Below, one piece after another: positions 1,612 through 47,663 of a DNA stretch of 53,321 nt. The stretch covers positions 1-53,321 of the forward strand of contig JAFQWE010000008.1 of NCBI GenBank assembly GCA_017407645.1, in the 5' to 3' direction. The position numbers and the translations under genes are program-made. The stretch comes from Clostridia bacterium. GTDB lineage: Bacteria; Bacillota; Clostridia; Oscillospirales; Acutalibacteraceae. Every line of letters begins with the position of its first letter. Within the stretch, counting starts at the first letter, position 1. The notes beneath the pieces were generated by a model that was given only the letters and a program-made list of their open reading frames with translations, did not search any database and was not told the origin of the DNA.

Positions 1612-1629
1612 ACCTATCACCTCTTTTTT

Positions 1630-1658
1630 ATTATATAAAAAAGGAAAGTTATAGTCAA
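1630..1658 (-). promoter_or_regulatory. sigma-A promoter of the FAD oxidoreductase
   Basis: On the minus strand, TTGACT (1653-1658) and TATAAT (1630-1635) are separated by 17 bases. The predicted start site (about 1623) falls at the edge of the GAGGTG ribosome site, so the leader would be only about 12 bases. Confidence 0.75.
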
Positions 1659-1710
1659 TGGATAATTAACATTTGACCGCATATAAATAAAACAGAAGGA
1701 GTGGATGATT

Positions 1711-3706: not shown

Positions 3707-3710
3707 TAAA

Positions 3711-5745: not shown

Positions 5746-5753
5746 GGCTTTTT
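5724..5753. terminator. bidirectional terminator, copy 1
   Basis: A perfect 12-base-pair stem (AAAGCCTCAATC/GATTGAGGCTTT) with loop GGTT and flanking T and A runs serves the two converging genes. The spoVB stop codon lies inside the stem. The same stem and loop recur at 8432-8462. Confidence 0.85.
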
Positions 5754-5756
5754 GAT

Positions 5757-29965: not shown

Positions 29966-29970
29966 CTATC

Positions 29971-31026: not shown

Positions 31027-31038
31027 TGTTTTCACCCT

Positions 31039-32019: not shown

Positions 32020-33473
32020 CAAGCCTTACTTTTAAAAAATTTTGATGCAAAGCCTTTTATCTTTTCAAGAATAAGCAGTGCCGTCTCATTTTTAGTCACA
32101 AGCACAAAGGCAACGTATACAATTACGCCACCCAGAAGCTCTGCCAAAAGCTTAACCACCACGCCGGTCGGCAACAAGGCAATCAGACGAACTGCGCCGT
32201 ACATTACAAGGGAGCCGAGAATTGCGCTCAAATTATCCTTTAGAAGCTTGGGCAGGTCGAACATATCCCTTAAATTCCAATATGACACGGCAAAAACGGT
32301 ACATTCGGCAATAAGACAGGCAATACAGGCGCCGTAGGTCTGGAAGAAGGGAATAAGCACCATATTACTTGCTATGCTAACCATTGCGCCTGCTGTTGTG
32401 GCAAGGGTGTATATCTTTTCTTTGCCGAGAGGCAGAAGCATCTGCACGCCCATAAGACTGTTCATTGATACGATAAACACAAGCACGCTGAGTATCTTTA
32501 AAACGGGAGCAACCTCTAAATACTCACTGCCTAAAAAGAAGGGAATAAAGTCGTCTGCCACGCCTAATATGCCAAACATGGCGGGCAATGCGATAAACCA
32601 AGTAAAACTGATAGACTTGTGCACGTAGGCGCGGATTCCCTCTTTATCATTGCTTTGGGAAAGATTGGCAACGCGAGCCATCATAACGTAGCCTACCGAC
32701 TGCAAAACCCCCGTAATCATTCGGGCAATACGTTGACCCTGGTCGTATATACCAACGTTGTCGGTGTTGGTCATCCAACCAAGCATACTGCGGTCAATAA
32801 GGGCGTATATATAGTTCATCGCCTGAGGAATAAGCAGGAAAAAGCTAGGCTTAAGATGCTCAAAAGGCTTTAAGATTTTGCCTTTTCTAAGGTCGACGTA
32901 CTGAGGCAGATAGTAAATCATTATAAGGTTGCCCACAAGGGTGCTAAGCACTGCCATAAGCACGTACCAAGGCAAATCTGCAGGGGTGCGTATAAAGGTG
33001 AAAAGGCAAACCACAAAAATGAATTTTACAACAAGATTGCGCAGCGTTACCTTTTTAAAATCCTCTACACCCTGATAAAACCAAGTTATATCAATGCCGT
33101 TGGCAACAATATTTATAATGTGAATGCGGTAAATATAGGCATTCTCGTTATTGATACAAAGCGCAGGGATATAAACCGCAAGAGTGACCGCCGTAAGCAC
33201 CAATCTTAACAAAATCAGGCCCTTGGTTACACGTGCAAGCTCTTCCTCATCGTCACGAACGTAGGCTACCTTGCGTATGCCGTAAAGGGACGTGCCAAGA
33301 GCGCCTAAAATAATAAAATAGGTTACTATGCTTTCGGTAAAGGAATGTATGCCGTTGGCGTGCAATCCCAAAGTCCTTGCCATATAAGGTGTTGTAATAA
33401 CGGGCAACACCGTAACAAGAACCTGATAAAGCATATTAAAAAATACGTTTTCGGTTACACTTCTTTTTTTCAT
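32019..33473 (-). CDS. wzx: Wzx-type oligosaccharide flippase
   Basis: 484 residues with about 12-14 membrane segments. The N-terminus ENVFFNMLYQVLVTVLPVITTPYMARTLG is typical of the RfbX/Wzx group. The GVEDFKKVTLRNLVVKFIFVV segment and YALIDRSMLGWMT fit the family. It flips the lipid-linked unit made by the genes around it. Starts two bases after the Wzy-like gene and ends on the start codon of the glycosyltransferase. It is the second flippase in the window. Confidence 0.88.
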   Translation of the reverse strand: MKKRSVTENVFFNMLYQVLVTVLPVITTPYMARTLGLHANGIHSFTESIVTYFIILGALGTSLYGIRKVAYVRDDEEELARVTKGLILLRLVLTAVTLAVYIPALCINNENAYIYRIHIINIVANGIDITWFYQGVEDFKKVTLRNLVVKFIFVVCLFTFIRTPADLPWYVLMAVLSTLVGNLIMIYYLPQYVDLRKGKILKPFEHLKPSFFLLIPQAMNYIYALIDRSMLGWMTNTDNVGIYDQGQRIARMITGVLQSVGYVMMARVANLSQSNDKEGIRAYVHKSISFTWFIALPAMFGILGVADDFIPFFLGSEYLEVAPVLKILSVLVFIVSMNSLMGVQMLLPLGKEKIYTLATTAGAMVSIASNMVLIPFFQTYGACIACLIAECTVFAVSYWNLRDMFDLPKLLKDNLSAILGSLVMYGAVRLIALLPTGVVVKLLAELLGGVIVYVAFVLVTKNETALLILEKIKGFASKFFKSKA

Positions 33474-33475
33474 TT

Positions 33476-34897
33476 TTAACCTTCTGTCTTTTTCTTAAAT
33501 AAAGGCTCGGTTCGGCAATAAATAAGAAGCAGAACTATTCCCAAATAAATTGCCACGTTGGGTCGCCTTAGCAAATAGCCTGAATAAATAGCCGATATAA
33601 TCTGCAAGCCTAAAGCCACCAGCACAATAAAGTTAAACAGATTAAAGCTGCCTTTAAAATCGGTTACAAGCTGCTTTATCAGTCGGGCAATAAAATATGC
33701 CATAAGCAGCAAAAACAGTGCCGCGCCAATATATCCGTAATAATACAAAATTGCAGGCGGGTCGTTTTCAAGGTCAAAATTATCGTCCTTGTGTTGCATT
33801 TTTGTGTATTCAAAGCCAACCAAACGGGTGGCAAAATCCGACTCATCCCATACAAGACGGGCATATATCAGTTTTTTAAGACGCATATCCGACAAGCCGT
33901 AGGAATTAAGGTTTTCGCCATATGCATCAAGCACCTTGTCAGGCCCAAAGCGGTCAACAAGATTGGGGTTAATATAGTCTAAATAGAAATATTTGCCCTT
34001 TAACTCCTCTTCATCCTCTTTGTCCTTGTCTTCCTTATCCTCCTCCATCAGTTTATCAAGAGCAGCCTGCTCCTCTAACCGATTGCTTTGAGCGGTACTG
34101 TCGATAATCTGGCGGGGGGAGTAATTATAGCACAAAAGGGATGCCGCAATCAGAAGCACTGCCATTGCGCACTTATAAATCTGGAAACGATTACGCTTTT
34201 CCTTAATGAAGACAAGCTCAACAAAACAAAATCCTGCCACTGCACCGAAGGATGCAAGCATTGCCCCAAAGGTAGCCTTGGTGCCGTTAAGAGTGTACAT
34301 ATAAATCAAAGGCAACATTGTAAGCGGAAAATAATACTTGCAGTATTTTATTGCAAAACACAGCCCAAAAGGAATAAGGCTTGACAAAATTATGCTTTGA
34401 GCATTAGGAATAACATACCAGCCTGTCCATCCCATCTGGAACATTGGATAGGTGCAGTTGCCGCTATTAAGCGCATAGGACAGATAAAATGCAACCACGC
34501 TTGTAATCACATTTATAATAAGGCCTGTCGAAATCTGCTTTAACAAAGATGCCTTTTCATAAAGAAACATAAAGCAGAAAAGTAAAATTGGCATATGAGC
34601 AACCAACAGCATATATTTTACGTCGCTGAATACACCTGCAAAGCCGTCTCGCAGGGTGTTAAGCACGTGCAATGCGCAAAAGCCGACAATCACCGACATT
34701 ACCGCAATGAATTTTTTGCGTTCTTTGGTGAAAAACAACACGTAAAGGGGTAACGCCACTGTGACAGCAAGGCGGAAATATCCTGCCAGTGATACGGCAG
34801 AATCGCTTTGAAAATATGCCAAAATATCTAAAAAGGGCTGTAACGTTAAAAATATGAGAAGCATATTGTTTTTAACAAAATCAATAACTTTTTTCAT
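33476..34897 (-). CDS. wzy: Wzy-type polymerase / O-antigen ligase family protein
   Basis: 473 residues, about 12 membrane segments. A large hydrophilic loop (about 275-380) contains an unusually acidic Lys/Asp/Glu run (DKLMEEDKEDKDKEDEEELK) before the last helices. The loop position fits the catalytic outward loop of O-antigen ligase/polymerase proteins. AAGGAG lies seven bases before the ATG. Its place between a GT2 gene and the flippase supports Wzy. Sequence similarity to known Wzy proteins is always low, so the call rests mainly on topology and context. Confidence 0.72.
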   Translation of the reverse strand: MKKVIDFVKNNMLLIFLTLQPFLDILAYFQSDSAVSLAGYFRLAVTVALPLYVLFFTKERKKFIAVMSVIVGFCALHVLNTLRDGFAGVFSDVKYMLLVAHMPILLFCFMFLYEKASLLKQISTGLIINVITSVVAFYLSYALNSGNCTYPMFQMGWTGWYVIPNAQSIILSSLIPFGLCFAIKYCKYYFPLTMLPLIYMYTLNGTKATFGAMLASFGAVAGFCFVELVFIKEKRNRFQIYKCAMAVLLIAASLLCYNYSPRQIIDSTAQSNRLEEQAALDKLMEEDKEDKDKEDEEELKGKYFYLDYINPNLVDRFGPDKVLDAYGENLNSYGLSDMRLKKLIYARLVWDESDFATRLVGFEYTKMQHKDDNFDLENDPPAILYYYGYIGAALFLLLMAYFIARLIKQLVTDFKGSFNLFNFIVLVALGLQIISAIYSGYLLRRPNVAIYLGIVLLLIYCRTEPLFKKKTEG

Positions 34898-34912
34898 TTT
34901 TACTCTCCTTTT

Positions 34913-35866
34913 TTAATATCCCTTGCTCTTTGCCTTAATACTTAAAATCAACTTAGACAAGCCCGACAGTCCCGCATAATTAAGCAGTGCAATAATCTTG
35001 CGGTTTTTTGCCATTTGGGCGAAAACTGCATCCTTATAAAATTTGGGGTAGCGTTTTTTTACCTCGCTGACCATTTGTTTAATTATCTTGTTTTTATTTT
35101 TGTTCTTTTGGGCTTTCAGACGGTTGACGGTGGTAATAAGCAGGTGGTCAAGATACAAATACTCCAGCACGTCCTTATATTTTTCCGTCATTCCCTTTTC
35201 TTCAACGTATCGGGTCAGGTTGCCAAGCACCGTTAACATATCAAGATTTTTTTCGGCGTTGTTGTTGGTCATTGTGGAAACTTCACGGCAGTGGCAGTGA
35301 TAAAAGCTTTTGTGTATTACACTGATTTTTTCGGTAAGCATCAAATTTTTGGTGGTAAACTCAAAATCCTCATACCACAAGCCCTCAGGAAAGCGTATAT
35401 CCCCCACAAAATCCCGCCTGAAAATTTTGTTGCAGGCAGAGGGAGTTACCGCAAACTTGCTTTCAAACTGTGAGGCGTGATGATAGACGTCGTAGGTGGG
35501 ATAGTGGTCGGTGGTATCGCAAATAACGATATCCGCATCCTCCCCCTTTGCCTTTTCATACATTTCGGTATACATTTCGGCATCCACCCAGTCGTCACTG
35601 TCAACAAAGCCAAGATACTCGCCCTGCGCATACTGAAGGGCAAGGTTTCTTGCCGATGCCTGACCGCCGTTTTCCTTGAAAAATCCCTTTACCTTTTGAG
35701 GATATTTTTCCTCGTATTCTTTGATAATTTGGTCTGAGCCGTCGGTAGAACCGTCGTCAACCACCAAAATCTCTATATCTTCAAGGGTCTGACCCACCAA
35801 GGAGTCAAGACACTGGTGTAAATAATCTTTTGTGTTATAAACAGGAATTATTACACTAACCTTCAT
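34913..35866 (-). CDS. family 2 glycosyltransferase
   Basis: 317 residues, GT-A fold: MKVSVIIPVYNTKDYLHQCL, then EILVVDDGSTDGSDQI, ENGGQASARNLAL and VDSDDWVDAEMYTEMY (metal site DSDD). The ATG at 35866 has CAGGTGA five bases upstream. An in-frame extension to 35896 lacks a site. First gene of the upstream polysaccharide operon, about 30 bases downstream of the predicted transcription start. Confidence 0.9.
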   Translation of the reverse strand: MKVSVIIPVYNTKDYLHQCLDSLVGQTLEDIEILVVDDGSTDGSDQIIKEYEEKYPQKVKGFFKENGGQASARNLALQYAQGEYLGFVDSDDWVDAEMYTEMYEKAKGEDADIVICDTTDHYPTYDVYHHASQFESKFAVTPSACNKIFRRDFVGDIRFPEGLWYEDFEFTTKNLMLTEKISVIHKSFYHCHCREVSTMTNNNAEKNLDMLTVLGNLTRYVEEKGMTEKYKDVLEYLYLDHLLITTVNRLKAQKNKNKNKIIKQMVSEVKKRYPKFYKDAVFAQMAKNRKIIALLNYAGLSGLSKLILSIKAKSKGY

Positions 35867-35900
35867 TTTATTCACCTGCTTTACATAATTATACATAGTG

Positions 35901-36083: not shown

Positions 36084-39000
36084 ATGAAGAAAAGCAAGTT
36101 TTTAGCGGTTATTATAACTGTAGTTGCTCTTGTTTGTACGTTCACTCTTTTTGCATCTGCAGAGGAGCCTGTTCAAGAAGGCTTTGTCTACGATGCAGAG
36201 GGCGGATACTACGTATTTTATGATTGGGGCAACATAGTAACCGACCGCGAAATTTGGGTTGATCAATACAGAGCAACCTTCCGCTTTGACCAAGAGGGCA
36301 GAATGCTTAACGAAGAGTGGTATCTTGCCGATGACGGCAGCTGGTACTACTACAAGGCGGGCGGCTACCGTGCCGAGAGCGAGTCACTCCAAATCGGCGG
36401 TGTCTACTACGCATTCAATAACGAAGGCGTAATGGTTGACGGCAAGGATGAAGAAATTTATCTTATAGACAAAGACCAGTGGGTGTTTGTTCGCGCCAAA
36501 GCAGGCGGTCCTATCTACGTAAACGAGTGGTATCTTGACCAAAACGGCACCTGGTACTACTACGGTGAAAACGGATACACCACCGAAGGCTTAATGGAAT
36601 ACGGCGGCAACTACTATTACATTGGCTATCGCGGTGAAATGTATGCCGACGGTGAATATAATGTTTATGATGAAGCTACTGATAAGTGGGTTTGGTACCG
36701 CATAAAGCCCAACGGTGTGCTTTATCGCAACGAGTGGTTTGAAAACGACTATTACTACACCGACGACTGCAAAGCCGCACAGGGCTTCTTGGTTGTTGAC
36801 GGTATCGGCCGTTACTTTAGCGAAAGCGGTTGGAAGATGTACGGCGGCTCGTACTTTGACGAAGCAGCAGGCTGCACCTACGTAGTTACCTACAACGGCG
36901 TTGCCGCTAAGCTTAACGCAAACGGTTGGACCTTGGTAGGCAAGGATTACTACTATTGCGAAGATGGTCAGATGTTTACCGACGGCATCTATGAAATAGG
37001 CAATGCAAGCTACTATTTCTACGGTGACGGCATTATGCTTCAGAACGATTATGTTTATGATTACGAAAACAATGCCCGCTACCGTGCAGGTGCAAGCGGT
37101 GCTCTTTACCGTAACCAGTGGGCTCTTTCCGATGAATACGGTTGGGGCTACGACAGATGGGAATACTACGGCGACGATTTCAAAGGCTATGAAGACGGTA
37201 TTTATACCATCGGCGCAGCACAGTATATGTTCAGAAACTATATCGCCCTTTCTGACGAGCTTATAGCCTACGACGGTATTGATGGCGTTTATGTTGCAGA
37301 TAAGAGCTGTGCTCTTACCAAACACAGCAACGGTTGGCTCCTCTTTGACGACACCTGGTATTATGTTGAAAATGACTGCTTGGTCAAAAATGGCATAAAG
37401 CAAATCGGCGATTTCAAGTACGGCTTCGACTATGAAGGCAGAATGTACAGCAACCAATACTTTGAGGTTGAATATTACAACGAATTAGGCGACTATTACG
37501 AATTCTGCTACTATCTTGCAGGCGAAAGCGGTGCAGTTGTTGAAACTCCCGGTTGGGTTGTTGCAGGTCAGTATTACTACTACATAAATGAGGACGGCAC
37601 TCTTTACACAGGTGAATTGGATATTAACGGCACCGTTTACTGTCTCTATCCCCAAATGAACGCCGCTTCTATTGATTACATTTATGAGTATGACGAAGAA
37701 AATGGAACAGATAGCTTCTATCTTTATGCCGTTCTTCCCAATGGCACTTATCAAAAGATAACCGCTTCAGGCTACTATGCAACACCTTACGGCAAGCTGC
37801 TTGTTGAAAACGGCAAGATTTATCAGGGCTGGAAGCAGACAGCAAACGGTGCTTGGTTCTACTTTGACCTTGAGCTTGTTGCAGGCAGAGATGCCTATAT
37901 TGACGATAATATGTACTATTTTGACCATTCGGGCAAAATGGCAGCAGGCGGCTGGATTGATTGCGGCGACACCTTCAAGTATGCCGATGAATACGGCAGA
38001 TTGGCAACAGGTTTCACTAATATTAACGGCACCGATTATATCTTTGATATGACCGACTTGGTTCGCAACAGCTTATATTACAACGAAGACGGTTTCTGGT
38101 ATGTTACCGATGAAACCGGCAGGGCATACAAGATTGGTAAAGAGGGTTGGAATCAAATTAACGATGAGTGGTACTACATTCAGGATGGCAACCTTTGCCG
38201 AGGCGAGACCTACTTGATTGAAAACGATGAAGAGGTTGTTTATTTATTCAATTATGAAACCGGCAAATTGATGACCAACCACTACGACGGCTCTTACTAT
38301 TATGATGAGAACGGCCGCCGCTTTGAAGACGGTTGGGTATATCACAACGGCGGTTGGAGATATTTTGACCCCTACGAGTACTGGTGGGGACTTTACACCA
38401 TTAACGGAATTAACTACTTCTTTGAATACGGCATTATGCTTGCAGATACCACCTATTACGATTTCTCTAGCCAAACCGTTTATGTTATTGATGCTTACGG
38501 CATAGTTGTAAATGAGTTTGATATGGCTGACGGCTTTAGCTACGGAAACGGCAACGCATGGCTCCTTAAGAATGGCATCGGTTATACCGGTTGGTATGGC
38601 GATTGCTACTTCAGAGACGGTGTTATGCTGATTAACCAACTTGAAAAGGTTGACGGCAAAATTTACTACTTCACTCCCAAAGGCACCTATTTGCGTGGTT
38701 GGTATCAGGATGTTGACGGCGAATGGATATATGCCGACCAAAGCGGCGCAGTTGTTACAAATCAGTGGATTCAATCAGGCAGCGCTTGGTACTATGCAGG
38801 TGTATATGGCTGGTGCCTTAACGACGGCGTTGAATATATTGAAGCCGAAGACAGATATGCTTTGTTTAATGAAAACAGCGTATACGTAAAATATATTGAT
38901 TTGGATCCCGAGCTTCCCACAGGCACCGCTAACACATGGAGCTATAAGGATGGCTTCTGGTACTACTTCACCTCAACGGGTGTTGCTGCAAACAGCGATT

Positions 39001-39671
39001 TCCTTTATATCGGCAACGCTTGGTATTACTTCGACTACCAGGGCAAAATGTATGCCGACAGATTTGACTTCAACGGCTTCTACTATCAGGCATCAGGCGC
39101 TCGTCTTGAGGCAACCTGCGAATGGAAGCTTATCAACGGCAAGTGGCTCTATTTTGGCGCTGACGGCAGTGTAGATACAGGTTGGCTGCTTCTTAACGGC
39201 ACAAAATACTTCATTGCAGACAAATGGGGCTATTCCGAATTGAACGGCGAAGAAGAGTTTGATTACGAAATGTATACCGGCTTCCGTCTTATTGACGGTA
39301 AGGTATATCAGTTCTCTGCCGCAGGTGCTTGCTTTGGCGAGTATACCACTAACGGCTGGGTTCAGTTGTACGACGGCAGCTTTGCTTATATCAAAGACGG
39401 CAAGCTGTTGACCGATGGCGTTTACAACATCAACGGCACCGACTACTGCTTCGATTATGATGGCTATATGGTGGTAAACAATTACTACTACGTCGAATCA
39501 ACCGGCAAGTGCGTTTATGCTTCTGCATCAGGTGCTTTGTTGGGCATCGGCTGGCACAACACCGCAGAAGGCTGGGTTTACGTTGATGCTCAGGACGGCG
39601 TGCTAACAAACGGTGTTTACCTTATCAACAACGGCCTTTACTTCTTCAACCACGGTTACTGGGTTTCATAA
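36084..39671 (+). CDS. giant secreted protein of choline/cell-wall-binding-type repeats, paralogue 1
   Basis: 1,195 residues. A signal peptide (MKKSKFLAVIITVVALVCTF, cleavage probably after ASA near residue 26) is followed almost at once by aromatic-rich repeats to the end. The repeat pattern is GW-x(3-6)-GxWYYY-x(3)-G-x(5-8)-G-x-Y-x-I-x-G-x-Y-Y-x-F, with Tyr and Trp forming the usual stacked hairpins of CW_binding_1/choline-binding modules. I see no catalytic or anchoring domain, so about 97 percent of the mature protein is repeat. AAGGAGGA lies seven bases before the ATG. The adjacent choline kinase/cytidylyltransferase operon suggests it binds phosphocholine on surface polymers. Glucan binding is the main alternative for this repeat family. 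Confidence 0.85.
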   Translation: MKKSKFLAVIITVVALVCTFTLFASAEEPVQEGFVYDAEGGYYVFYDWGNIVTDREIWVDQYRATFRFDQEGRMLNEEWYLADDGSWYYYKAGGYRAESESLQIGGVYYAFNNEGVMVDGKDEEIYLIDKDQWVFVRAKAGGPIYVNEWYLDQNGTWYYYGENGYTTEGLMEYGGNYYYIGYRGEMYADGEYNVYDEATDKWVWYRIKPNGVLYRNEWFENDYYYTDDCKAAQGFLVVDGIGRYFSESGWKMYGGSYFDEAAGCTYVVTYNGVAAKLNANGWTLVGKDYYYCEDGQMFTDGIYEIGNASYYFYGDGIMLQNDYVYDYENNARYRAGASGALYRNQWALSDEYGWGYDRWEYYGDDFKGYEDGIYTIGAAQYMFRNYIALSDELIAYDGIDGVYVADKSCALTKHSNGWLLFDDTWYYVENDCLVKNGIKQIGDFKYGFDYEGRMYSNQYFEVEYYNELGDYYEFCYYLAGESGAVVETPGWVVAGQYYYYINEDGTLYTGELDINGTVYCLYPQMNAASIDYIYEYDEENGTDSFYLYAVLPNGTYQKITASGYYATPYGKLLVENGKIYQGWKQTANGAWFYFDLELVAGRDAYIDDNMYYFDHSGKMAAGGWIDCGDTFKYADEYGRLATGFTNINGTDYIFDMTDLVRNSLYYNEDGFWYVTDETGRAYKIGKEGWNQINDEWYYIQDGNLCRGETYLIENDEEVVYLFNYETGKLMTNHYDGSYYYDENGRRFEDGWVYHNGGWRYFDPYEYWWGLYTINGINYFFEYGIMLADTTYYDFSSQTVYVIDAYGIVVNEFDMADGFSYGNGNAWLLKNGIGYTGWYGDCYFRDGVMLINQLEKVDGKIYYFTPKGTYLRGWYQDVDGEWIYADQSGAVVTNQWIQSGSAWYYAGVYGWCLNDGVEYIEAEDRYALFNENSVYVKYIDLDPELPTGTANTWSYKDGFWYYFTSTGVAANSDFLYIGNAWYYFDYQGKMYADRFDFNGFYYQASGARLEATCEWKLINGKWLYFGADGSVDTGWLLLNGTKYFIADKWGYSELNGEEEFDYEMYTGFRLIDGKVYQFSAAGACFGEYTTNGWVQLYDGSFAYIKDGKLLTDGVYNINGTDYCFDYDGYMVVNNYYYVESTGKCVYASASGALLGIGWHNTAEGWVYVDAQDGVLTNGVYLINNGLYFFNHGYWVS

Positions 39672-39691
39672 TTCATAACTGAATAATTTCA

Positions 39692-39729
39692 GCACGGGTA
39701 TTGGTGAAAACCAATGCCCGTGCTTTTTT
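39692..39729 (+). terminator. terminator of repeat surface protein 1
   Basis: GCACGGGTATTGGT pairs with ACCAATGCCCGTGC (one mismatch) across GAAA, followed by TTTTTT. Nearly identical to the hairpin after the second paralogue. Confidence 0.9.
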
Positions 39730-39851: not shown

Positions 39852-42800
39852 ATGAAGAAAAGCAAACTTTTAGCAGTTATTATAACTGTGCTTGCTACTG
39901 TTTGTATGTTCACTCTTTTTGCATCTGCCGAAGAGCCTGTTCAAGATGGCTTTGTGTATAATGCAGAAGGTGGATACTATGAATATTACGAGTACGGTTA
40001 TAAAGTAGTCGACTGCGAAATCTGGATATCTGAGTACAACGCCAACTTCCGTTTCGACGAAGAGGGCAGAATGTTAGACGATGAGTGGTACCAAGATGAA
40101 GAGGGTAATAAATACTATTATTTGCCAGGTGGCTACCGTGCAGATAATGACAGAGTATTTGTTATTGATGGCAAGCATTATGCCTTTAACCATAACGGTG
40201 TACTGTATCGCGATTGCATTTGCAGAATTTATTCTAATGAGTTAGACGGCTACTCCTGGGGCCGCGCCAGAGAGGACGGCACTTTGTATGTAGACCAGTG
40301 GTACCTTGATGAAGAAACAAATGAGTGGTACTATTACGGTGCCAACGGTACCTCTCCCAAAGGAGTTACCTATATCGGCGGTAACCCCTACTACATCGGT
40401 TACGAAGGCAGAATGGATACAGGAACCTTCTCTGTAACTGTCGGTAATGACGAAAAGCTCTATGTATACCGCACAAAAGAAAACGGCGTGCTTTTCCGCA
40501 ACGAGTGGGACGGTAACGGCTTTGCCAAGTGGTACTACACCGACGATTGCTCCGCTGCTCAAGGTTATATGTTTGTTGACGGCGCATACCATCTTTTCAG
40601 TGAATACGGTTTTCTTTACACCTACACTGTTGAAAAGGACTTTTTGACAGGTATTTCTTACACCTGCGACCAAAACGGTATCGCAAAGCCTCTTAATGTA
40701 AACGGTTGGTCATATGTAGATAACACCTATTATTATTGTGAAAACGGCGATGCATATAAAGACGGCGTTTATAAGATTGGCGATGCATATTATTTCTTCC
40801 AGTTCCACGGAAAAATGCTTCAAAATGAAATTTTTTACGGCTCAGTTGAATCTGTAGTTGTTCAGTACAGAGCAAAGGAGAGCGGCGCTCTTTATCAAAA
40901 CGAGTGGTACTCTGAAATAACCAATAACGGCCCAGGCACAGAAAGTTATTTGCACAAAGAATATTACGGCGAAGACTTTAACGGCTGTCGTGACGGTTTT
41001 CATACCATTGACGGTGACCTGTACTACTTTATTTCAAACGGTGTAAATTCTAATCATTTACTCGACTACTTCGATGATGCAGTTTATGTAACTGACGCCG
41101 ACTGCAAACTTGTAAAATACAACAACTGCTGGATTCTCAACAATGGCAACTGGTACTATGTTGAAAACAACAAGTTGATTAAAAACAACGTTAAGGAAGT
41201 TGGCGGTGTTTTGTACGGCTTTGACTTTAAAGGCGTTATGTATGAAAACTGCATCGTTGAAATTTACGACCGTTCTTCATCAACCCGTGGTTCTAAATAC
41301 TACATCGCCACTAAGGGCGGTGCCATTGTAACCACTCCCGGTTGGACTGTATTTGACGGAAAATACTATTATGTTACCGAGGACGGTTCACTTTATCAAG
41401 GCGAGTTGACACTGGGTAACACTACCTATTATCTTGACCCCGCAATGATTGAGGGAACATACGGTGCAGAGCAAATTTATAACGACGCAACCGATGATTA
41501 CGACTATAAACTTTATCTTGTTTTGCCAAACGGTGTTAAGCAGCCCATTACCGCAGAGGGTTATTACAACACTCAGGACGGTAGAGTGCTTGTTGAAAAC
41601 GGCAAACTTTATCAGGGTTGGAAGCAGATTAACGGATATTGGTACTATCTAAATCCTGCCTTTACTGAGGGTCAGGCACGCTACATTGACGGCTCATATT
41701 ACTATTTTGACAACACCGGCAAAATGGTTGCTAACGGTTGGCACTACCGCGGCAACAGTTATATTTATGCCAATGAGTACGGCCGCCTTACAACAGGTGC
41801 TGCCGAAATTGGCGGCATTTTGTACGGCTTTAACAGCAACGGTACATTGGTCACCGACGGTTACTTCTATTTTGACGATGAAATTTATGTTACCGACGCA
41901 AACGGCAGAGCATATTTGCTTGAAAACGACGGTTGGAATCTTGTTAACGGATATTGGTACTTCGTAAAAGAGTACGACGACGGCTACGACTCTTTCAAGG
42001 AACTTGCCACCGACTATATGTACTTAGTAGAAAACGACAAAGAGGTTGTTTACTCATTCAGTTGGGATAGCGGTCGCATGAATACCAACCACTATGACGG
42101 CGATAGTTATTTCGGAGCAGACGGACGCCGTGTAACAAACTCATGGCTTCTCACCGAAAAGGGTTGGATGTACTTTGACCCCTATCAGTATTGGAGCGGT
42201 TGCTACAACATAGACGGCGTTGACTATTACTTTGACAACGGCGTAATGCAAACAAACGGCACCTTCTACGATATTTACGGCAGTTACTGCTATGTTGTTG
42301 ATGCATCAGGTGTTGTAACATCATCCTTCCCTGTTTCCGACGGCATCCATTATAGCGGCGACACCGCATATATGTATAAAAACGGCGAGTTGTACGACGG
42401 TTGGTACGGCGAATACTATTTTGACGACGGCTATATGGCTATCGACACATCTATTGAATACAACGGAAACTTGTATTACCTTGACGGTCACGGCAAATAT
42501 ATCCGCGGTTGGTACAAGAGTGGTGACGCTTGGATTTATGCCGACCAGAGCGGCGCCGTTGTCACAAATCAGTGGATTCAGTCAGGTTCATCCTGGTACT
42601 ATGCCAGCGAATACGGTTGGATGTACTACGGCGGCGTATTCTACATTGAGGCTGAAGATAAATATGCCAAGTTTGATAAGAACGGCATTTATCAGGGCTA
42701 TGTTGACTACCGTGTTCCCACAGGCACACCTTACTCTTGGGAGTATCGTGATGGCAACTGGTACTACTACACATCCACCGGCGTTGCCGCCTACAGTTGC

Positions 42801-43460
42801 GAAATGCTGCTTGGCAACATCTGGTATGCCTTTGACTATGAAGGCAAAATGATTGCTGATAACTTCTACAATCAGCACTACTATCAGGCATCGGGTGCCA
42901 GACTTGAAGCATCTTACCAGTGGGCACTTATCAATAACAAGTGGGTTTACTTCGGTTCAGACAGCAAGGTTAAATCAGGCTGGATTAACCTTAACGGTAC
43001 AAGATATTACATTGATTACTATATCGAGAGTGATAATAATTACACCAACTATATTTACGAAATGGTTGCAGGCTATGCTTTGATTAACAATGAAGTTTAC
43101 CGTTTCTCTGCCTCAGGCGCTTATGAAGGCAAGCACACCACTGACGGTTGGGTTCAACTTTACAACGGTAATTTCGCTTACATCAAAGACGGCGAGGCGC
43201 TCACAGAAGGTGTTTACAACATCAACGGCACCAACTACGCCTTCGATTCAGACGGCGAAATGTTAGCAGACGGCGGCAACTATATTGAAGGTTTCGGATT
43301 TGTATACGCCACTGCCTCGGGCGCACTTTACACTCCCGGCTGGCACAACACCGCTAACGGTTGGATTTATGTAAAATCCAACGGCAGAGCCTGTGAAAGC
43401 GGCGTTTGCCTTATCAACGGTGTTCAGTACTTCTTTAGCGCAGGCTACTGGGTTCCGTAA
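39852..43460 (+). CDS. giant secreted protein of choline/cell-wall-binding-type repeats, paralogue 2
   Basis: 1,202 residues. It is collinear with the preceding gene along its whole length. The signal peptides differ at only four or so positions. Shared landmarks include ADQSGAVVTNQWIQSG, GWVQLY-x-G-x-FAYIKDG and the ending on a GW-type repeat. Like paralogue 1 it is nearly all aromatic hairpin repeats, without an enzyme or anchor domain. AAGGAG lies eight bases before the ATG. The pair has clearly diverged (insertions, many substitutions), so the duplication is not recent. Predicted location: cell surface, held by the repeats, most simply through phosphocholine given the next operon. Confidence 0.85.
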   Translation: MKKSKLLAVIITVLATVCMFTLFASAEEPVQDGFVYNAEGGYYEYYEYGYKVVDCEIWISEYNANFRFDEEGRMLDDEWYQDEEGNKYYYLPGGYRADNDRVFVIDGKHYAFNHNGVLYRDCICRIYSNELDGYSWGRAREDGTLYVDQWYLDEETNEWYYYGANGTSPKGVTYIGGNPYYIGYEGRMDTGTFSVTVGNDEKLYVYRTKENGVLFRNEWDGNGFAKWYYTDDCSAAQGYMFVDGAYHLFSEYGFLYTYTVEKDFLTGISYTCDQNGIAKPLNVNGWSYVDNTYYYCENGDAYKDGVYKIGDAYYFFQFHGKMLQNEIFYGSVESVVVQYRAKESGALYQNEWYSEITNNGPGTESYLHKEYYGEDFNGCRDGFHTIDGDLYYFISNGVNSNHLLDYFDDAVYVTDADCKLVKYNNCWILNNGNWYYVENNKLIKNNVKEVGGVLYGFDFKGVMYENCIVEIYDRSSSTRGSKYYIATKGGAIVTTPGWTVFDGKYYYVTEDGSLYQGELTLGNTTYYLDPAMIEGTYGAEQIYNDATDDYDYKLYLVLPNGVKQPITAEGYYNTQDGRVLVENGKLYQGWKQINGYWYYLNPAFTEGQARYIDGSYYYFDNTGKMVANGWHYRGNSYIYANEYGRLTTGAAEIGGILYGFNSNGTLVTDGYFYFDDEIYVTDANGRAYLLENDGWNLVNGYWYFVKEYDDGYDSFKELATDYMYLVENDKEVVYSFSWDSGRMNTNHYDGDSYFGADGRRVTNSWLLTEKGWMYFDPYQYWSGCYNIDGVDYYFDNGVMQTNGTFYDIYGSYCYVVDASGVVTSSFPVSDGIHYSGDTAYMYKNGELYDGWYGEYYFDDGYMAIDTSIEYNGNLYYLDGHGKYIRGWYKSGDAWIYADQSGAVVTNQWIQSGSSWYYASEYGWMYYGGVFYIEAEDKYAKFDKNGIYQGYVDYRVPTGTPYSWEYRDGNWYYYTSTGVAAYSCEMLLGNIWYAFDYEGKMIADNFYNQHYYQASGARLEASYQWALINNKWVYFGSDSKVKSGWINLNGTRYYIDYYIESDNNYTNYIYEMVAGYALINNEVYRFSASGAYEGKHTTDGWVQLYNGNFAYIKDGEALTEGVYNINGTNYAFDSDGEMLADGGNYIEGFGFVYATASGALYTPGWHNTANGWIYVKSNGRACESGVCLINGVQYFFSAGYWVP

Positions 43461-43476
43461 TAACTGAATAATTTCG

Positions 43477-43514
43477 GCACGGGTGTTGGTGAAAACCAAT
43501 GCCCGTGCTTTTTT
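43477..43514 (+). terminator. terminator of repeat surface protein 2
   Basis: GCACGGGTGTTGGT pairs with ACCAATGCCCGTGC (one mismatch) across GAAA, followed by six T. Copy of the hairpin at 39692. The -35 element of the next promoter begins two bases after it. Confidence 0.9.
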
Positions 43515-43515
43515 C

Positions 43516-43543
43516 TTGACTTTTTAGAATAGTGTGTTATAAT
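43516..43543 (+). promoter_or_regulatory. sigma-A promoter of the choline operon
   Basis: TTGACT (43516-43521), 16 bases, TATAAT (43538-43543), 30 bases before the GTG at 43574. Confidence 0.75.
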
Positions 43544-43573
43544 ATGTTCATAAAATGTTGAGGCGGTGATTTC

Positions 43574-45352
43574 GTGAACAAGCAAGAGTTCGATTTGCTC
43601 ATAACCCTAAAAAAGAGTACCTTTGTCAATCAGCGTGCTTTAGCAAAGGATAGCGGCTACTCTTTGGGGCTTGTTAACTCTGCCCTGAAAAACTTGGTGG
43701 AGGCAGGCTATCTGACGGCAGATTATACCCTTTCAAAAAAGGCGTTGGCACTTTTTGAGGCAAACACTCCCAAACGGGCAGTCATTCTTGCGGCAGGAAG
43801 CGGAATCAGAATGGTGCCTATCAACACCGAAACTCCCAAAGCCCTTTTGCAAGTTAAGGGTGAGGTGCTTATTGAACGGCAAATCCGCCAACTTAACGAG
43901 GCGGGGGTTACCGATATTGCAGTGGTTGTTGGCTTTTTAAAGGAAAAGTTTGAGTATCTGATTGATAAATTCGGCGTTGACCTTGTTTACAACGGTGAAT
44001 ATTACACAAAAAACAATCTCCACTCCTTGTTTCTCGTTAAAAACCGACTTGCCAAATGCTATATCGTACCTTGCGATTTGTGGTGCAGTGAAAATCCTTT
44101 CAGCAAGGATGAGCTTTACTCTTGGTATGCCGTCACCGACGAAATGACTCAAAAGAGCGACGTTTTTGCCAACCGCAAGGGTCAGCTTGCCAAGGTAGCC
44201 TATAATCAGCAGGGCAACCGTATGTTTGGCATCTGCTATCTTGACGGCAAAATGGGTGAAACGGTGGCAAAACGTCTGACCGATATGGAGCATGATATTA
44301 AGTACAGCCACTCTTTTTGGGAGGAGGCAGTGTACGAAGGCAAAAAGATGCTTCCCTTTGCTAAGGTTTTGTCTGCCGAGAGCAATTTTGAGATTAACAC
44401 CTATGAGCAACTGCGGGATATTGACAGTGACTCTTTGCAACTGAAATCGGAAAAAATCGAAATTATAGCAAAGGCTATGGATTGCTCCCCCGATGAAATT
44501 GTTGATATAAAAATTCAGAAAAAGGGTATGACCAACCGCTCGTTCCTTTTCACTCTGCGTGGCAAAAGATATATTATGCGAGTGCCCGGTGAGGGTACCG
44601 ACAATCTTATAAACCGCAAGGAAGAGGCAGAGGTTTACAAGGTTATTTGGGATAAAAAGATATGTGACGACGTTATTTATATCAACGCCGAAAACGGATA
44701 TAAAATCACCGCATTTTTAGATAACGCCCGTGTGTGCGATGCCGAAAATGATGATGATTTGCGCCGCTGTATGAAACGGCTTCGTGACTTTCACAATATG
44801 AAGCTAAAGGTTAGCCATACCTTTGATATTTTTGAGAAAATCAATTTTTATGAGTCCCTTTGGTTAAGCGAGCAGTCACAATATATTGACTACGGGCAAA
44901 CCAAGGCAAAGGTTTTTTCTCTTAAAGGCTTTGTGGACCGATATAAGCAGGAATACAGTCTTACTCACATTGACGCGGTGCCCGACAACTTCCTATTCTG
45001 CACCGACAGTGAGGGTAAAGAGGACATTCGCCTGATTGACTGGGAATATTCCGCCATGCAAGACCCCCACGTTGATATTGCAATGTTTATTATCTATTCA
45101 ATGTATGACCGCGAAGGAGCGGATAATCTGATTGACACCTATTTCACCGAGGGGTGCGACACTATTACCCGTATTAAGATTTACTGCTATATTTCTATGT
45201 GCGGTCTGCTTTGGAGTAACTGGTGCGAATACAAGCGTGATTTAGGCGTGGAATTCGGTGAATACTCCTTAAAGCAATACCGCTTTGCCAAGGAATATTA
45301 CACCCTTGCAACCGAACTGATTAAAAAGGAGGGGTTAGATGCACAAGGTTAA
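43574..45352 (+). CDS. winged-helix / cytidylyltransferase / choline kinase fusion (LicCA-like)
   Basis: 592 residues in three parts. Residues 1-63 are a winged-helix DNA-binding-like domain (NQRALAKDSGYSLGLVNSALKNL). Residues 67-290 are a nucleotidyltransferase with AVILAAGSGIRMVPINTETPKALL, similar to LicC phosphocholine cytidylyltransferases. Residues 305-592 are a choline/ethanolamine kinase domain with KKGMTNRSFLF, the catalytic HIDAVPDNFLF (465-475) and LIDWEYSAMQDPHVDIA (about 487-503). Predicted reactions: choline to phosphocholine, then to CDP-choline. A licCA fusion is known in Treponema denticola. The winged helix may give autoregulation. The GTG start follows AGGCGGTGA. It overlaps the next gene by 14 bases. 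Confidence 0.88.
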   Translation: MNKQEFDLLITLKKSTFVNQRALAKDSGYSLGLVNSALKNLVEAGYLTADYTLSKKALALFEANTPKRAVILAAGSGIRMVPINTETPKALLQVKGEVLIERQIRQLNEAGVTDIAVVVGFLKEKFEYLIDKFGVDLVYNGEYYTKNNLHSLFLVKNRLAKCYIVPCDLWCSENPFSKDELYSWYAVTDEMTQKSDVFANRKGQLAKVAYNQQGNRMFGICYLDGKMGETVAKRLTDMEHDIKYSHSFWEEAVYEGKKMLPFAKVLSAESNFEINTYEQLRDIDSDSLQLKSEKIEIIAKAMDCSPDEIVDIKIQKKGMTNRSFLFTLRGKRYIMRVPGEGTDNLINRKEEAEVYKVIWDKKICDDVIYINAENGYKITAFLDNARVCDAENDDDLRRCMKRLRDFHNMKLKVSHTFDIFEKINFYESLWLSEQSQYIDYGQTKAKVFSLKGFVDRYKQEYSLTHIDAVPDNFLFCTDSEGKEDIRLIDWEYSAMQDPHVDIAMFIIYSMYDREGADNLIDTYFTEGCDTITRIKIYCYISMCGLLWSNWCEYKRDLGVEFGEYSLKQYRFAKEYYTLATELIKKEGLDAQG

Positions 45353-46049
45353 GCGTGCCATAATTATGGCGGCAGGCACAGGCACAAGAATGCAGCCTGT
45401 CACTTTAGAAACCCCTAAACCTATGATTGAGGTTAACGGCAAGCGGATGATTGACACCGTAATTGATGCTTTGCACCAAAACTCAATTACCGAAATTTAC
45501 GTGGTGGTGGGCTATCTTAAAGAGAAATTTGCTCCCCTCACCCAAAAGTATGAGGGAGTCACCCTTATCGAAAACCCCTATTACGACACCTGCAACAACA
45601 TTTCTTCTCTTTACGTTGCAAGGGAGCATTTAAAGGACGTTATCATCCTTGACGGTGACCAGATTATATATAACCCCGAAATCTTAGACCCCAACTTTGA
45701 ACGGTCAGGCTACAATGCCATCTGGACCGACAGTCACACTGACGAATGGGTGCTTACGGTGGAAAAGGACATCGTCACCAAGTGCAGTCGCACAGGCGGT
45801 GAAAAAGGGTGGCAGCTTTTCAGCGTTTCCCGTTGGAGTGAGGAGGACGGTATCCGTCTTAAAGGGCATCTTGAGGCGGAATTTGAGCAAAAGCAAAATC
45901 GTGGGATTTATTGGGACGACGTGGCTCTTTTCTGCTATCCCAGCCAGTACGAATTAGGCATCCGCCCTATGAATCAGGGCGACATTCTTGAAATTGACGC
46001 CATCGGTGAATTGGCACAGGTGGACGACAAATACAAAGCTTATATTTAG
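45339..46049 (+). CDS. licC: LicC-like phosphocholine cytidylyltransferase
   Basis: 236 residues. NTP_transferase domain with AIIMAAGTGTRMQPVTLETPKPMI (residues 7-30), VVVGYLKEKF, ENPYYDTCNNISSLYVAREHL and LDGDQIIY (the metal-binding Asp pair), then YWDDVALF near the end. The CNNISSLYVA type of segment is common to LicC/choline-phosphate cytidylyltransferases. Predicted reaction: CTP plus phosphocholine to CDP-choline. AAGGAGGGG precedes the ATG inside the 3' end of the kinase fusion. This is a second copy of an activity already present as a domain in the preceding gene, so one of the two may act on another alcohol phosphate. Confidence 0.85.
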   Translation: MHKVKRAIIMAAGTGTRMQPVTLETPKPMIEVNGKRMIDTVIDALHQNSITEIYVVVGYLKEKFAPLTQKYEGVTLIENPYYDTCNNISSLYVAREHLKDVIILDGDQIIYNPEILDPNFERSGYNAIWTDSHTDEWVLTVEKDIVTKCSRTGGEKGWQLFSVSRWSEEDGIRLKGHLEAEFEQKQNRGIYWDDVALFCYPSQYELGIRPMNQGDILEIDAIGELAQVDDKYKAYI

Positions 46050-46059
46050 GAGGACCAAA

Positions 46060-47619
46060 ATGAATAAAAAGCTTAACCAAAAGGGCAAAATCGATTGGAT
46101 GATTACACTTGTTCCCCTTGCACTTGTTGTGGGGCTGAGCATCCTTTTCTTTGTGTTGCCCGAGCAGTCTAACGTTGTTATCAGTCAGGTAAGAAGCTTG
46201 CTTGGTGACACTATGGGTGTTTATTACCTTATAATCGGATTGGGCGTTTTCCTTGTGTCAATGTTTATTGCCTGCTCAAAGTACGGCAATATCGTACTTG
46301 GCGGACAGGATGAAAAGCCCAAATACTCCTTCTTGGCTTGGGGTTCAATGATGTTTACCGCAGGTCTTGCGGCAGATATTCTGTTTTACTCCTTCTCTGA
46401 ATGGGTACTTTATGCCACCGACCCACACATTGCACAGCTTGGCTCTATTCAAGAGTGGGCAGGCGTATTTCCCCTTTTCCACTGGAGCCTTATTCCTTGG
46501 GGCTTTTACCTTGTGCTTGCCGTTGCCTTTGGCTTTATGCTTCACGTTCGCAACAAGGACAGACAGAAGTATTCAGAGGCTTGCCGTCCTATTTTAGGCA
46601 AGCATACCGACGGTATTTTAGGCAGACTGATTGATCTGCTTGCCGTTTTTGCATTGCTTGCAGGCACTGCTACCACCTTTAGCCTTGCCACTCCCCTTAT
46701 GGCTAATATTATTGCCGAGCTTTTCGGTCTTACCGTCAATACAACCCTTATTAACATAATCATTCTGATTGTTACCTGCGTTGTTTACACCTATTCACTG
46801 CTTCACGGCTTTAAGGGTATCGGTATTCTTGCAAAGGCTTGCATTTTCCTTTTCTTCGGTCTGCTTGCCTACGTGCTTATTTTCGGCGGTCAGGCTCGCT
46901 ATATTATTGAAACAGGCGTTGAATCACTGGGTAAAATGGTTAACGAGTTCTTTAGTCTGTCAACCTACAGCGACCCTCAGCGTACCGAGGCATCATTCCC
47001 TCAGAATTGGACCATTTTCTATTGGGCATACTGGATGGTATGGTGTGTTGCCGCTCCCTTCTTTATCGGCACCATTTCAAGAGGCCGCACCGTCCGTCAG
47101 ACCATTTTGGGCGGCTACGGATTCGGTGTTGGCTCAACCATTCTGAGCTTTGTTATCCTTGGCAACTATTCTATGGGCTTGCAGACATCAGGCAAAGCCG
47201 ACTTTATTGCCAAGTATACCGAGACGGGCGACCTTTACGGTATGATTATTGATATGATTAAAACCTTACCTCTTGCTCCCGTTGTGCTTGTAATCGTGCT
47301 TGTTACCATGATGCTCTTTTACGCTACATCCTTTGACTCAATTGCACTTATCGGCGCTTGCTACAGTTACCGCAAGTTAGGCTCAAGCGAAATGCCTAAC
47401 AAGATGATTCAGTTTATGTGGTGCATACTGCTTATAGTTTTGCCAATCGCTCTGCTTTTCTCTGACAGTTCAATGGCTAATTTGCAGTCGGTAAGTATTA
47501 TTGCCGCCTTCCCCATTGGCATTGTAATTGTGCTTATTGTGGCAAGCTTTATGAAGGATGCCAACAAGTTTATGAAAGAGATAAAGGCTCCTGCAAAAAC
47601 CGAAAGCACAGAAGAATAA
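46060..47619 (+). CDS. BCCT-family choline/betaine transporter
   Basis: 519 residues with the 12-helix pattern of betaine/choline/carnitine transporters. Family motifs include FHWSLIPWGFYLVLAVAFGFMLHVR and the signature WTIFYWAYWMVWCVAAPFFIG-type helix followed by ISRGRTVRQ. ATG 46060 has AGGAGG six bases upstream and lies ten bases after licC; the longer frame from 45988 is inside licC. Known lic loci use a DMT-family LicB for choline uptake; a BCCT protein in that place is a functional equivalent by inference. Terminator directly downstream. Confidence 0.9.
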   Translation: MNKKLNQKGKIDWMITLVPLALVVGLSILFFVLPEQSNVVISQVRSLLGDTMGVYYLIIGLGVFLVSMFIACSKYGNIVLGGQDEKPKYSFLAWGSMMFTAGLAADILFYSFSEWVLYATDPHIAQLGSIQEWAGVFPLFHWSLIPWGFYLVLAVAFGFMLHVRNKDRQKYSEACRPILGKHTDGILGRLIDLLAVFALLAGTATTFSLATPLMANIIAELFGLTVNTTLINIIILIVTCVVYTYSLLHGFKGIGILAKACIFLFFGLLAYVLIFGGQARYIIETGVESLGKMVNEFFSLSTYSDPQRTEASFPQNWTIFYWAYWMVWCVAAPFFIGTISRGRTVRQTILGGYGFGVGSTILSFVILGNYSMGLQTSGKADFIAKYTETGDLYGMIIDMIKTLPLAPVVLVIVLVTMMLFYATSFDSIALIGACYSYRKLGSSEMPNKMIQFMWCILLIVLPIALLFSDSSMANLQSVSIIAAFPIGIVIVLIVASFMKDANKFMKEIKAPAKTESTEE

Positions 47620-47629
47620 CTTAAAAAAT

Positions 47630-47663
47630 AACACAGGCTATGTACTCCATAGCCTGTGTTTTG
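47630..47663. terminator. bidirectional terminator
   Basis: A perfect 13-base-pair stem (AACACAGGCTATG/CATAGCCTGTGTT) with loop TACTC is flanked by an A run and TTTTG. It serves the choline operon and the converging glycoside hydrolase gene. Confidence 0.85.

Follow-up and report, generated by a model that had tools for sequence, protein, structure and literature searches.

The window analysed here, a stretch of 53,321 nucleotides from an uncultured clostridium of gut type, contains at positions 43516–47660 what is, as judged from its sequence, a single predicted transcription unit of three genes on the plus strand, located directly downstream of two genes for choline-binding-repeat proteins. 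The first gene (43574–45352) encodes a fusion protein of 592 amino acids, HTH-LicC1-LicA; the second (45339–46049) overlaps it by 14 nt and encodes LicC2, a probable CTP:phosphocholine cytidylyltransferase of 236 amino acids (1jyk, E 2e-30); and the third (46063–47619) encodes a BCCT-family transporter of 518 amino acids (PF02028, E 2e-122) with a probable role in choline uptake. A sigma-70-type promoter (TTGACT-16-TATAAT with a TG extension, 43516–43543, plus strand) matches the consensus at 11 of 12 positions and is the best in the scanned region, and a bidirectional terminator-like hairpin with a 13-pair stem (47630–47660) closes the operon; both are assigned by consensus match. The upstream repeat-protein gene ends in a terminator-like hairpin with a 15-pair stem and a T-run (43476–43509, plus strand), where an inverted-repeat finder at its own settings listed nothing; this hairpin is near-identical to one downstream of the first repeat gene (39691–39724), which suggests that the two repeat genes arose by duplication. 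The original prediction had proposed choline uptake by a BCCT transporter, a choline kinase and a cytidylyltransferase next to repeat proteins within 43516–47663. All three functions are recovered by Pfam and PDB sequence matches, and those coordinates fit the unit framed by the promoter-like site and the hairpins, themselves consensus matches. Several features go beyond that description: the kinase and a cytidylyltransferase are fused behind a winged helix–turn–helix (HTH), a second, different LicC is encoded, an operator-like pair is conserved in the operon, and the repeats of the neighbouring proteins are irregular with canonical repeats residing elsewhere in the genome.

The fusion protein comprises a winged HTH (about residues 1–64), a LicC-like nucleotidyltransferase (68–284) and the choline kinase LicA (305–572). 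Pfam detects an NTP-transferase domain and Choline_kinase (PF01633, E 4e-18), PDB sequence searches match 1jyk (E 5e-32) and 4r77 (E 2.5e-32), and a structure model (pLDDT 90.9) has LicA and LicC as its top Foldseek matches; the best solved-structure matches of the operon's enzymes by sequence are pneumococcal LicC and LicA. With the pneumococcal active-site numbering (PMC4364537), the LicA domain keeps eight of the 12 residues compared, including the aromatic cage: T29, D176, N181 and D194 correspond to T320, D467, N472 and D489 of the fusion, and Y197, W251, W254 and Y268 to Y492, W547, W550 and Y564, all eight being invariant in an alignment of 21 fusions. Four residues are changed (Q31 to R322, N32 to S323, K45 to R336 and E213 to Y508), the last of which touches the charge of choline in LicA and counts against choline as the substrate. 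LicC2 keeps D105, D192 and E216 of the pneumococcal LicC pocket (PMC6697681) together with aligned W136 and Y190, and the alignment shows that this pocket is not kept in LicC1. Despite the lost pocket of LicC1, a second LicC adjoining the fusion is absent from seven of 27 fusion loci (neighbourhoods were counted in the fetched flanks only), which counts against the scheme developed below.

A candidate operator of the form TGTTCA-N24/25-TGAACA spans the promoter and the start codon of the operon: TGTTCATAAAA at 43545–43555 and its inverted copy TGTTCACGAAA on the minus strand at 43570–43580 together cover 43545–43580 and lie over the GTG start. The motif TGTTCAYRAAA has just two matches in the 53,321 bases against 0.23 expected. 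At fixed spacing the pair is present in all 26 homologous genes tested (28 of 28 close HTH fusions once L080 and L087 are counted) and in six of seven distant HTH fusions, the exception being L054; it is absent from both fusions that lack the HTH (L082 and L084) and from all 364 other ORF starts in the same loci. Exact pairs occur at 22 distinct places in 1.19 Mb of fetched DNA, each with a spacing of 24 or 25 nt and each preceding an HTH-LicC operon; among HTH-LicC loci without a kinase, one of five (G013) has an exact pair. The codon-2 asparagine is encoded by AAC in 23 of 26 genes versus 40% elsewhere in the genes (p 3e-7, a value that ignores the kinship of the organisms). Because the conserved inverted pair is tied to the HTH and codon 2 is biased towards AAC, the first protein is probably an autoregulator of its own operon, acting through this candidate operator and laid out like NadR. 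Alternatively, the element could serve RNA-level or translational control, or be the site of another regulator, with the HTH not being the binder. Its overlap with the ribosome-binding region and start codon in close homologues is in keeping with such a role; yet in the distant homologues L052, L053 and L057 the pair lies 13–17 nt upstream of the listed start, in L041 it precedes a transporter operon in which HTH-LicC is the fourth gene, and where the HTH is absent so is the pair. We regard this alternative as unlikely.

The trifunctional NadR of Enterobacterales (HTH, NMN adenylyltransferase and ribosylnicotinamide kinase) has the same order of HTH, nucleotidyltransferase and kinase as the autoregulator proposed here. 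Forms without the HTH are known in the NadR family (PMC12421817) and are represented here by L082 and L084; the pathway and the enzymes differ, and the likeness is one of layout only. Among open-licence papers, covered by titles and the opening parts of abstracts, no description of the HTH fusion or its operator was found. A tentative elaboration, which we hold somewhat less probable than its negation, is that HTH-LicC1-LicA is a NadR-like choline autoregulator, in which the kinase would make phosphocholine, the altered-pocket LicC1 would sense phosphocholine, CDP-choline or CTP, and the HTH would tune the operon through the 36–37 bp inverted operator, such that surface phosphocholine would track the choline supply in gut Clostridia. 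The HTH-LicC proteins of aminoethylphosphonate-transporter operons would then represent a sister branch, with the same half-sites used by G013 at least.

The two neighbouring proteins, CBPa (36084–39671, plus strand, 1195 amino acids; Choline_bind_3, E 6e-22) and CBPb (39852–43460, plus strand, 1202 amino acids, 49% identical to CBPa; E 5e-13), consist entirely of repeats behind signal peptides apparent by eye; the Pfam repeat is matched in both with irregular spacing, and the choline-binding-type repeats of CBPa are divergent. Canonical tandem GW..WYY repeats of about 20 amino acids are found in four other proteins of the genome, encoded on contigs C10, C14 (two) and C27, one of which carries a lysozyme-type GH25 domain. 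The last 450 residues of CBPa are modelled as a hairpin array (pLDDT 86). A fold search with CBPa was dropped as a means of deciding its ligand, since its top matches (clostridial toxin repeat regions, the LytB choline-binding module, glucansucrases and CbpF) mix choline- and glycan-binding modules; the modelled fold fits glycan-binding modules as well as choline-binding ones, and CBPa and CBPb are candidate choline binders. Nine of the 27 fusion loci have choline-binding-repeat proteins in their fetched flanks and 18 have none, which counts against the scheme. Across 300 family genomes Choline_bind_3 occurs in seven of 16 kinase-positive versus 17 of 284 kinase-negative genomes (one-sided Fisher p 6e-5) and, with the window's own genome left out, in six of 15 kinase-positive genomes (p 3e-4), p-values that overstate independence because the organisms are related.

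The operon might instead activate another amino-alcohol to decorate the polymer, for example ethanolamine or one of its methylated forms, with the repeat proteins binding glycan. PF01633 spans choline and ethanolamine kinases, and the changed E213, the missing pneumococcal pocket of LicC1, the repeat fold's matches to glucan- and glycan-binding modules and the aminoethylphosphonate-type transporters of sister HTH-LicC operons are all compatible with this; but the LicA aromatic cage and the LicC2 pocket are kept, a BCCT transporter suits quaternary amines, and choline-binding repeats track the kinase. These observations render a substrate other than choline rather improbable.

The transferase LicD is missing from the window, as originally noted, and a search of the 71%-complete genome yielded a single match, on another contig (C10), where its gene overlaps one for a 2-hydroxyacid dehydrogenase. 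In a tree of 41 LicD rows, the bootstrap of which had not converged, it belongs to a clade of nine with support 100/100. Two LicDs of this clade in kinase-positive G246 are located 1.5–4 kb from TarI, and another member (L064) is less than 10 kb away from a lic operon. The clade also includes LicDs of G006, G017, G018 and G021, genomes without a LicA-type kinase match, so the LicD found may not be the phosphocholine transferase; given that LicDs close to lic operons are spread across the tree and that its bootstrap had not converged, its status as a proven transferase was dropped. Kinase-positive family genomes are not enriched in LicD (11 of 16 versus 152 of 284 kinase-negative ones, p 0.18), and this co-occurrence, not being significant, was set aside as evidence. 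The fetched flanks of six of the 27 fusion loci contain a LicD; gene orders in relatives include LicD-fusion-LicC-BCCT-CBP-CBP-(one other ORF)-CBP in L086 and LicD-MurJ/MOP flippase-fusion-LicC-BCCT in G113.

As the polymer to be decorated, the original prediction had pointed to the polysaccharide operons just upstream. One of these, a Wzx/Wzy-type cluster on the minus strand (28823–35896) encoding by Pfam a group-1 glycosyltransferase, a sulfotransferase-like protein, a GT2, a flippase, a polymerase and a further GT2, is a candidate target; five of its six genes adjoin the lic operon in L063 and a related cluster is present in G024. A TarI-TarJ-like-permease-TagH-like cluster on contig C37, cut by the contig end, would be at least as likely a target. 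CDP-choline could also end up in lipid, as phosphatidylcholine or a choline glycolipid, instead of on a surface polymer. In its LicC-LicA arrangement the fusion is reminiscent of the bifunctional LicCA of Treponema denticola, and the sole NCBIfam match of the LicD is Mf1, a LicD-family diacylglycerol cholinephosphotransferase (62 bits, cut-off 225). A review names a CDP-choline pathway in T. denticola. Against such a lipid product, the 71% of the genome at hand holds one LicD and revealed no phosphatidylcholine route, its sole CDP-OH_P_transf match being PgsA (over cut-off), although 29% is missing; a genome devoid of licD that spends CDP-choline only on phospholipid is not what was found. Lipid synthesis does not explain why the operon is linked in relatives to choline-binding-repeat proteins, to LicD and to genes of teichoic-acid type, and we consider it improbable.

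No LicB-like choline importer is encoded in the operon, and the BCCT transporter occupies its place. The transporter scores above the cut-off on TIGR00842 (412.5 bits); among NCBIfam models below their cut-offs its top scores are carnitine and betaine transporters, which counts against choline, its presumed substrate. BCCT transporters commonly serve osmoprotection, but accumulation of betaine or choline with an incidental kinase is very improbable, as the BCCT gene stands behind the cytidylyltransferase-kinase fusion, directly or after the second LicC, in 23 of 27 loci and LicB-like EamA proteins take its position in two (L080 and L088).

Enzyme families, gene order, the tie between the operator-like pair and the HTH, and the genome-level link between kinase and choline-binding repeats are read from sequence; on these grounds we think it likely that this is a lic-type phosphocholine operon with LicD encoded elsewhere, serving to decorate a surface polymer to which choline-binding proteins attach, with the first protein as regulator. 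The BCCT transporter would import choline, the LicA domain would convert it to phosphocholine and LicC2 would produce CDP-choline, from which a LicD encoded elsewhere in the genome would move phosphocholine onto a surface polymer, either a teichoic acid or the Wzy polysaccharide encoded next door; the decorated polymer would then be gripped by choline-binding-repeat proteins, the lysozyme-type one among them. The winged HTH would bind the TGTTCA/TGAACA sites over the transcription start and start codon, and repress or tune the operon in response to choline-pathway metabolites. The original reading is supported in part: the genes fit uptake and activation of choline to decorate a surface polymer, with choline-binding proteins encoded close by, while the two neighbours as choline binders, the LicD on C10 as the transferase and either polymer as the target are candidates.

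Pneumococcus, which has a choline-binding GH25 enzyme, offers a close parallel in its lic1/lic2 genes (licABC-tarIJ; licD1, licD2, tacF): choline kinase, LicC and choline uptake are shared, as are TarI in the genome, choline-binding repeats including a GH25 enzyme and, in relatives, a LicD, a TarI or a MOP flippase close to the operon or to LicD. Unlike in pneumococcus, BCCT stands in for LicB, the kinase forms a fusion with an HTH and an additional LicC, LicD lies outside the operon, two large all-repeat proteins are encoded beside it and the operator-like pair is conserved. Haemophilus lic1 (licABCD) likewise unites kinase, cytidylyltransferase and uptake in a single unit, but according to a review includes licD, uses LicB and modifies lipopolysaccharide. 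The PntC phosphonate-tailoring cytidylyltransferases (PMC6697681) have LicC-type activation for surface decoration in common, and in LicC1 the D192 position holds Glu, as in Tde-PntC; in contrast to PntC, no phosphonate gene was seen in the operon and the D105 position of LicC1 is occupied by Pro rather than Glu.

Surface phosphocholine has been described chiefly in airway pathogens and organisms related to them. The operon predicts that Clostridia of the gut and rumen bear the same coat, complete with choline-binding proteins, and there it could contribute to immunity against phosphocholine and to competition for choline. A 2023 survey (PMC10434233) covers 26 species, and a term search of its main text returned neither Clostridi- nor Lachnospiraceae. 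With a named DNA site and a fused enzyme-regulator, choline control of surface decoration becomes testable with purified protein. Operons of the same type are also found in cultured species, for example [Clostridium] aminophilum and Blautia parvula.

Three co-directional genes, framed by two terminator-like hairpins and preceded by a strong promoter match, make up the lic operon: a fusion of HTH, NTP transferase and choline kinase domains (43574-45352, +), a separate LicC gene termed LicC2 (45339-46049, +) and a BCCT transporter gene (46063-47619, +). Family assignment thereby bore out the choline kinase, cytidylyltransferase (LicC) and BCCT genes of the original prediction. Among solved structures the fusion best matches LicA of S. 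pneumoniae (2.5e-32) and LicC (5e-32) by sequence, and LicC2 best matches LicC (2e-30); an AlphaFold2 model of the fusion (pLDDT 90.9; 21 sequences) has LicA and LicC as its top fold matches. The operon can be read as a variant of the lic pathway, with a predicted operator and a fusion laid out as NadR. According to an excerpt of PMC12421817, trifunctional NadR is a single chain made up of an HTH, a nucleotidyltransferase and a kinase, and other lineages have forms that lack the HTH. In these terms the fusion resembles NadR in its three parts, in the operator-like site at its own promoter and in the occurrence of HTH-less forms; this is a likeness of layout, not a claim of homology.

Twelve LicA side-chain contacts described in an excerpt of PMC4364537 were placed on the fusion/LicA alignment with an inferred residue offset of 20. 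Eight are kept in the fusion (T320, D467, N472, D489, Y492, W547, W550, Y564) and are invariant in an alignment of 21 sequences (20 database fusions plus the window's); four are changed (Q31 to R322, N32 to S323, K45 to R336, E213 to Y508). The key residues of LicC comprise D105, D192 and E216 plus an aromatic box (excerpt of PMC6697681). LicC1, the LicC-like domain inside the fusion, has Pro at 105, no Trp at 136, Phe at 190 and Glu at 192, keeps D107 and E216, and has Asn at 218 (numbering from the same alignment offset). By alignment LicC2 keeps D105, D192 and E216 as well as W136 and Y190, which we take to be members of the aromatic box. Because this set of five is complete in LicC2, whereas LicC1 keeps only E216 of it, LicC2 probably is the phosphocholine cytidylyltransferase. 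Catalysis by LicC1 remains plausible, with another kind of pocket, except in the fusion at L083 194-1963, where Asn replaces the metal-binding Asp107 of the LicC1 domain, which suggests that catalysis has been lost while the HTH and kinase stay. Two sister HTH-LicC genes lie behind ABC-transporter genes, at L041 6136-7062 (genome G013) and L045 6513-7400 (G011), and both have Glu at the LicC D105 position, as does Tde-PntC. The L045 binding protein and permease match the 2-aminoethylphosphonate types PhnS2/PhnU2 below the cut-off; the L041 transporter was named by eye, and a LicD lies two genes further on.

A recurring word was spotted in the sequences upstream of fusion genes. TGTTCAYRAAA matches twice in the 53,321 b of the window (0.23 expected), and a motif scan places these matches as an inverted pair, the predicted operator, at 43545-43555 and 43570-43580. 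Scored as two half-sites of six positions each at fixed spacing, with a pass at ≥5/6 in each, the pair passes in 26/26 HTH fusions (the window's, 23 loci, G113 and G061); L080 and L087, outside this set, score 11/12 each, which gives an operator pair in 28/28 HTH fusions. Only 7 of 371 ORF starts in the tested loci pass, all of them fusion genes, and L082 and L084, which lack the HTH, reach 8 and 9 of 12, within the range of shuffles. Both the start codon of the fusion and its second codon overlap the second half-site; of 26 Asn codons at this second position 23 are AAC, against 351/887 of other Asn codons (p 3e-7). An exact scan for TGTTCA-N22..27-TGAACA across 1,189,051 b of fetched, partly overlapping DNA gave 25 matches, or 22 distinct places once three copies of the window site were removed; N is 24 or 25 at every one of them, and each precedes an HTH-LicC operon. 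These include five distant fusions with kinase domains of 24-31% identity (L051, L052, L053, L057, L059) and the aminoethylphosphonate-type operon at L041. L060, which makes a sixth such distant fusion, reaches 11/12; L054, also distant, has no pair (score 9), and four HTH-less kinase loci (L055, L056, L058, L061) score 7-9 at gene starts. Of five genomes whose HTH-LicC is not joined to a kinase (G001, G002, G008, G011, G013), only G013 has an exact pair in its fetched DNA. Such loci lacking a pair, like the four changed LicA residues, slightly lower the odds of the lic-type and NadR-like readings. The exact pair is absent from the fetched stretches of the window's own genome that carry LicD, choline-binding proteins and the tar-type cluster, so the operator seems private to the lic operon there.

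Scanning genome contigs gave at least 29 loci, of which the 27 listed (L063-L089) have the LicC1-LicA fusion. The HTH is present in 25 and absent in two (L082, L084), and a second LicC-type gene follows in 20/27; BCCT lies behind the fusion in 23, EamA in two, a contig end in one (L081) and something else in one (L087). Fetched flanks, often ended by contig ends, hold choline-binding-repeat proteins at 9/27 loci (motif count and phmmer; those tested, from L067, L070 and L086, were confirmed by Pfam) and LicD at 6/27. In G113, LicD and a MurJ/MOP flippase stand directly in front of the fusion operon. Among 300 family genomes, assumed to be the same for all three counts, the kinase domain occurs in 16 (E 1e-8), Choline_bind_3 in 24 (E 1e-6) and LicD in 163 (E 1e-10). 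Choline_bind_3 is found in 7/16 kinase-positive versus 17/284 kinase-negative genomes (p 6e-5; 6/15 without the window's own genome, p 3e-4), and LicD enrichment is not significant (11/16 versus 152/284, p 0.18). Adjoining lic operons or within ~10 kb of them, a YidC-like 60KD_IMP domain is fused to CDP-glycerol glycerophosphotransferase (L077 7727-9808, L136 12476-14560) or to a sulfatase domain with a distinct glycerophosphotransferase alongside (L085 5225-9369, L025 5952-9928). Polysaccharide clusters close to the operon repeatedly contain a sulfotransferase-like gene (window 29971-31035, L063 93-1148, L066 1539-2603, L068 10561-11619, L026 10026-11075).

LicD, which the original prediction had found missing from the window and proposed to seek in the genome, turned up once in a PF04991 search of the incomplete assembly (1.36 Mb, 41 contigs, 71% complete), on contig C10 (8697-9359, E 4.6e-49) rather than on the window's C33; its gene overlaps a 2-hydroxyacid-dehydrogenase gene at the latter's end. 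A tree of 41 LicDs places it, with 100/100 support, in a group with eight others, including those of G006, G017, G018 and G021, genomes with no kinase match at E 1e-8 (G021 by absence from the match list). Another clade member (L064 20692-21597) lies <10 kb from a lic operon, and kinase-positive G246 has two members with a TarI 1.5-4 kb away, so the C10 LicD may still have a choline role. We infer that the dedicated LicD lies in the missing part of the genome. The relative G024 (99% complete) carries the same operon at 57% identity, and one of its LicDs clusters at 100/99 with those of L082 and L069, both near lic operons. Behind this LicD come two ABC-exporter-like genes (by eye) and a TarI over the cut-off, and 3-9 kb further on lie another LicD and a protein with choline-binding repeats. 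Contig C37 of the window's own genome ends in TarI (325 bits against a cut-off of 166), a TarJ-like zinc-alcohol-dehydrogenase, an ABC-2 permease and an ATPase that is TagH-like (272 bits against a cut-off of 320); the G024 exporter ATPase matches the own-genome ATPase at 183 bits. At L038 13551-15542 (G024) a 663-aa protein with LicD as its C-terminal half adjoins a choline-binding-repeat protein, and similar long proteins occur in G190.

The two repeat proteins upstream of the operon, CBPa (36084-39671, +) and CBPb (39852-43460, +), are 49% identical and contain 6 and 8 irregularly spaced GW..WYY hairpins (shuffles 0.3). Near-identical terminators behind CBPa (39691-39724) and CBPb (43476-43509) point to duplication of the gene, of which the sister locus L063 carries a single copy. 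A model of the final 450 residues of CBPa (pLDDT 86, pTM 0.51; 6 sequences) shows an array of hairpins whose fold neighbours are choline-binding and glycan-binding modules alike. The genome holds four further proteins with canonical repeats, 7-10 hairpins each and mostly every 20 residues: LRR_5, GH25 and repeats on C10, LRR_5 and repeats twice on C14, and repeats on C27. Phage genes for terminase, head and portal (275-5758) are found ~3-8 kb from the C10 protein (L021 8567-14302), whose GH25 portion has matches among phage endolysin families.
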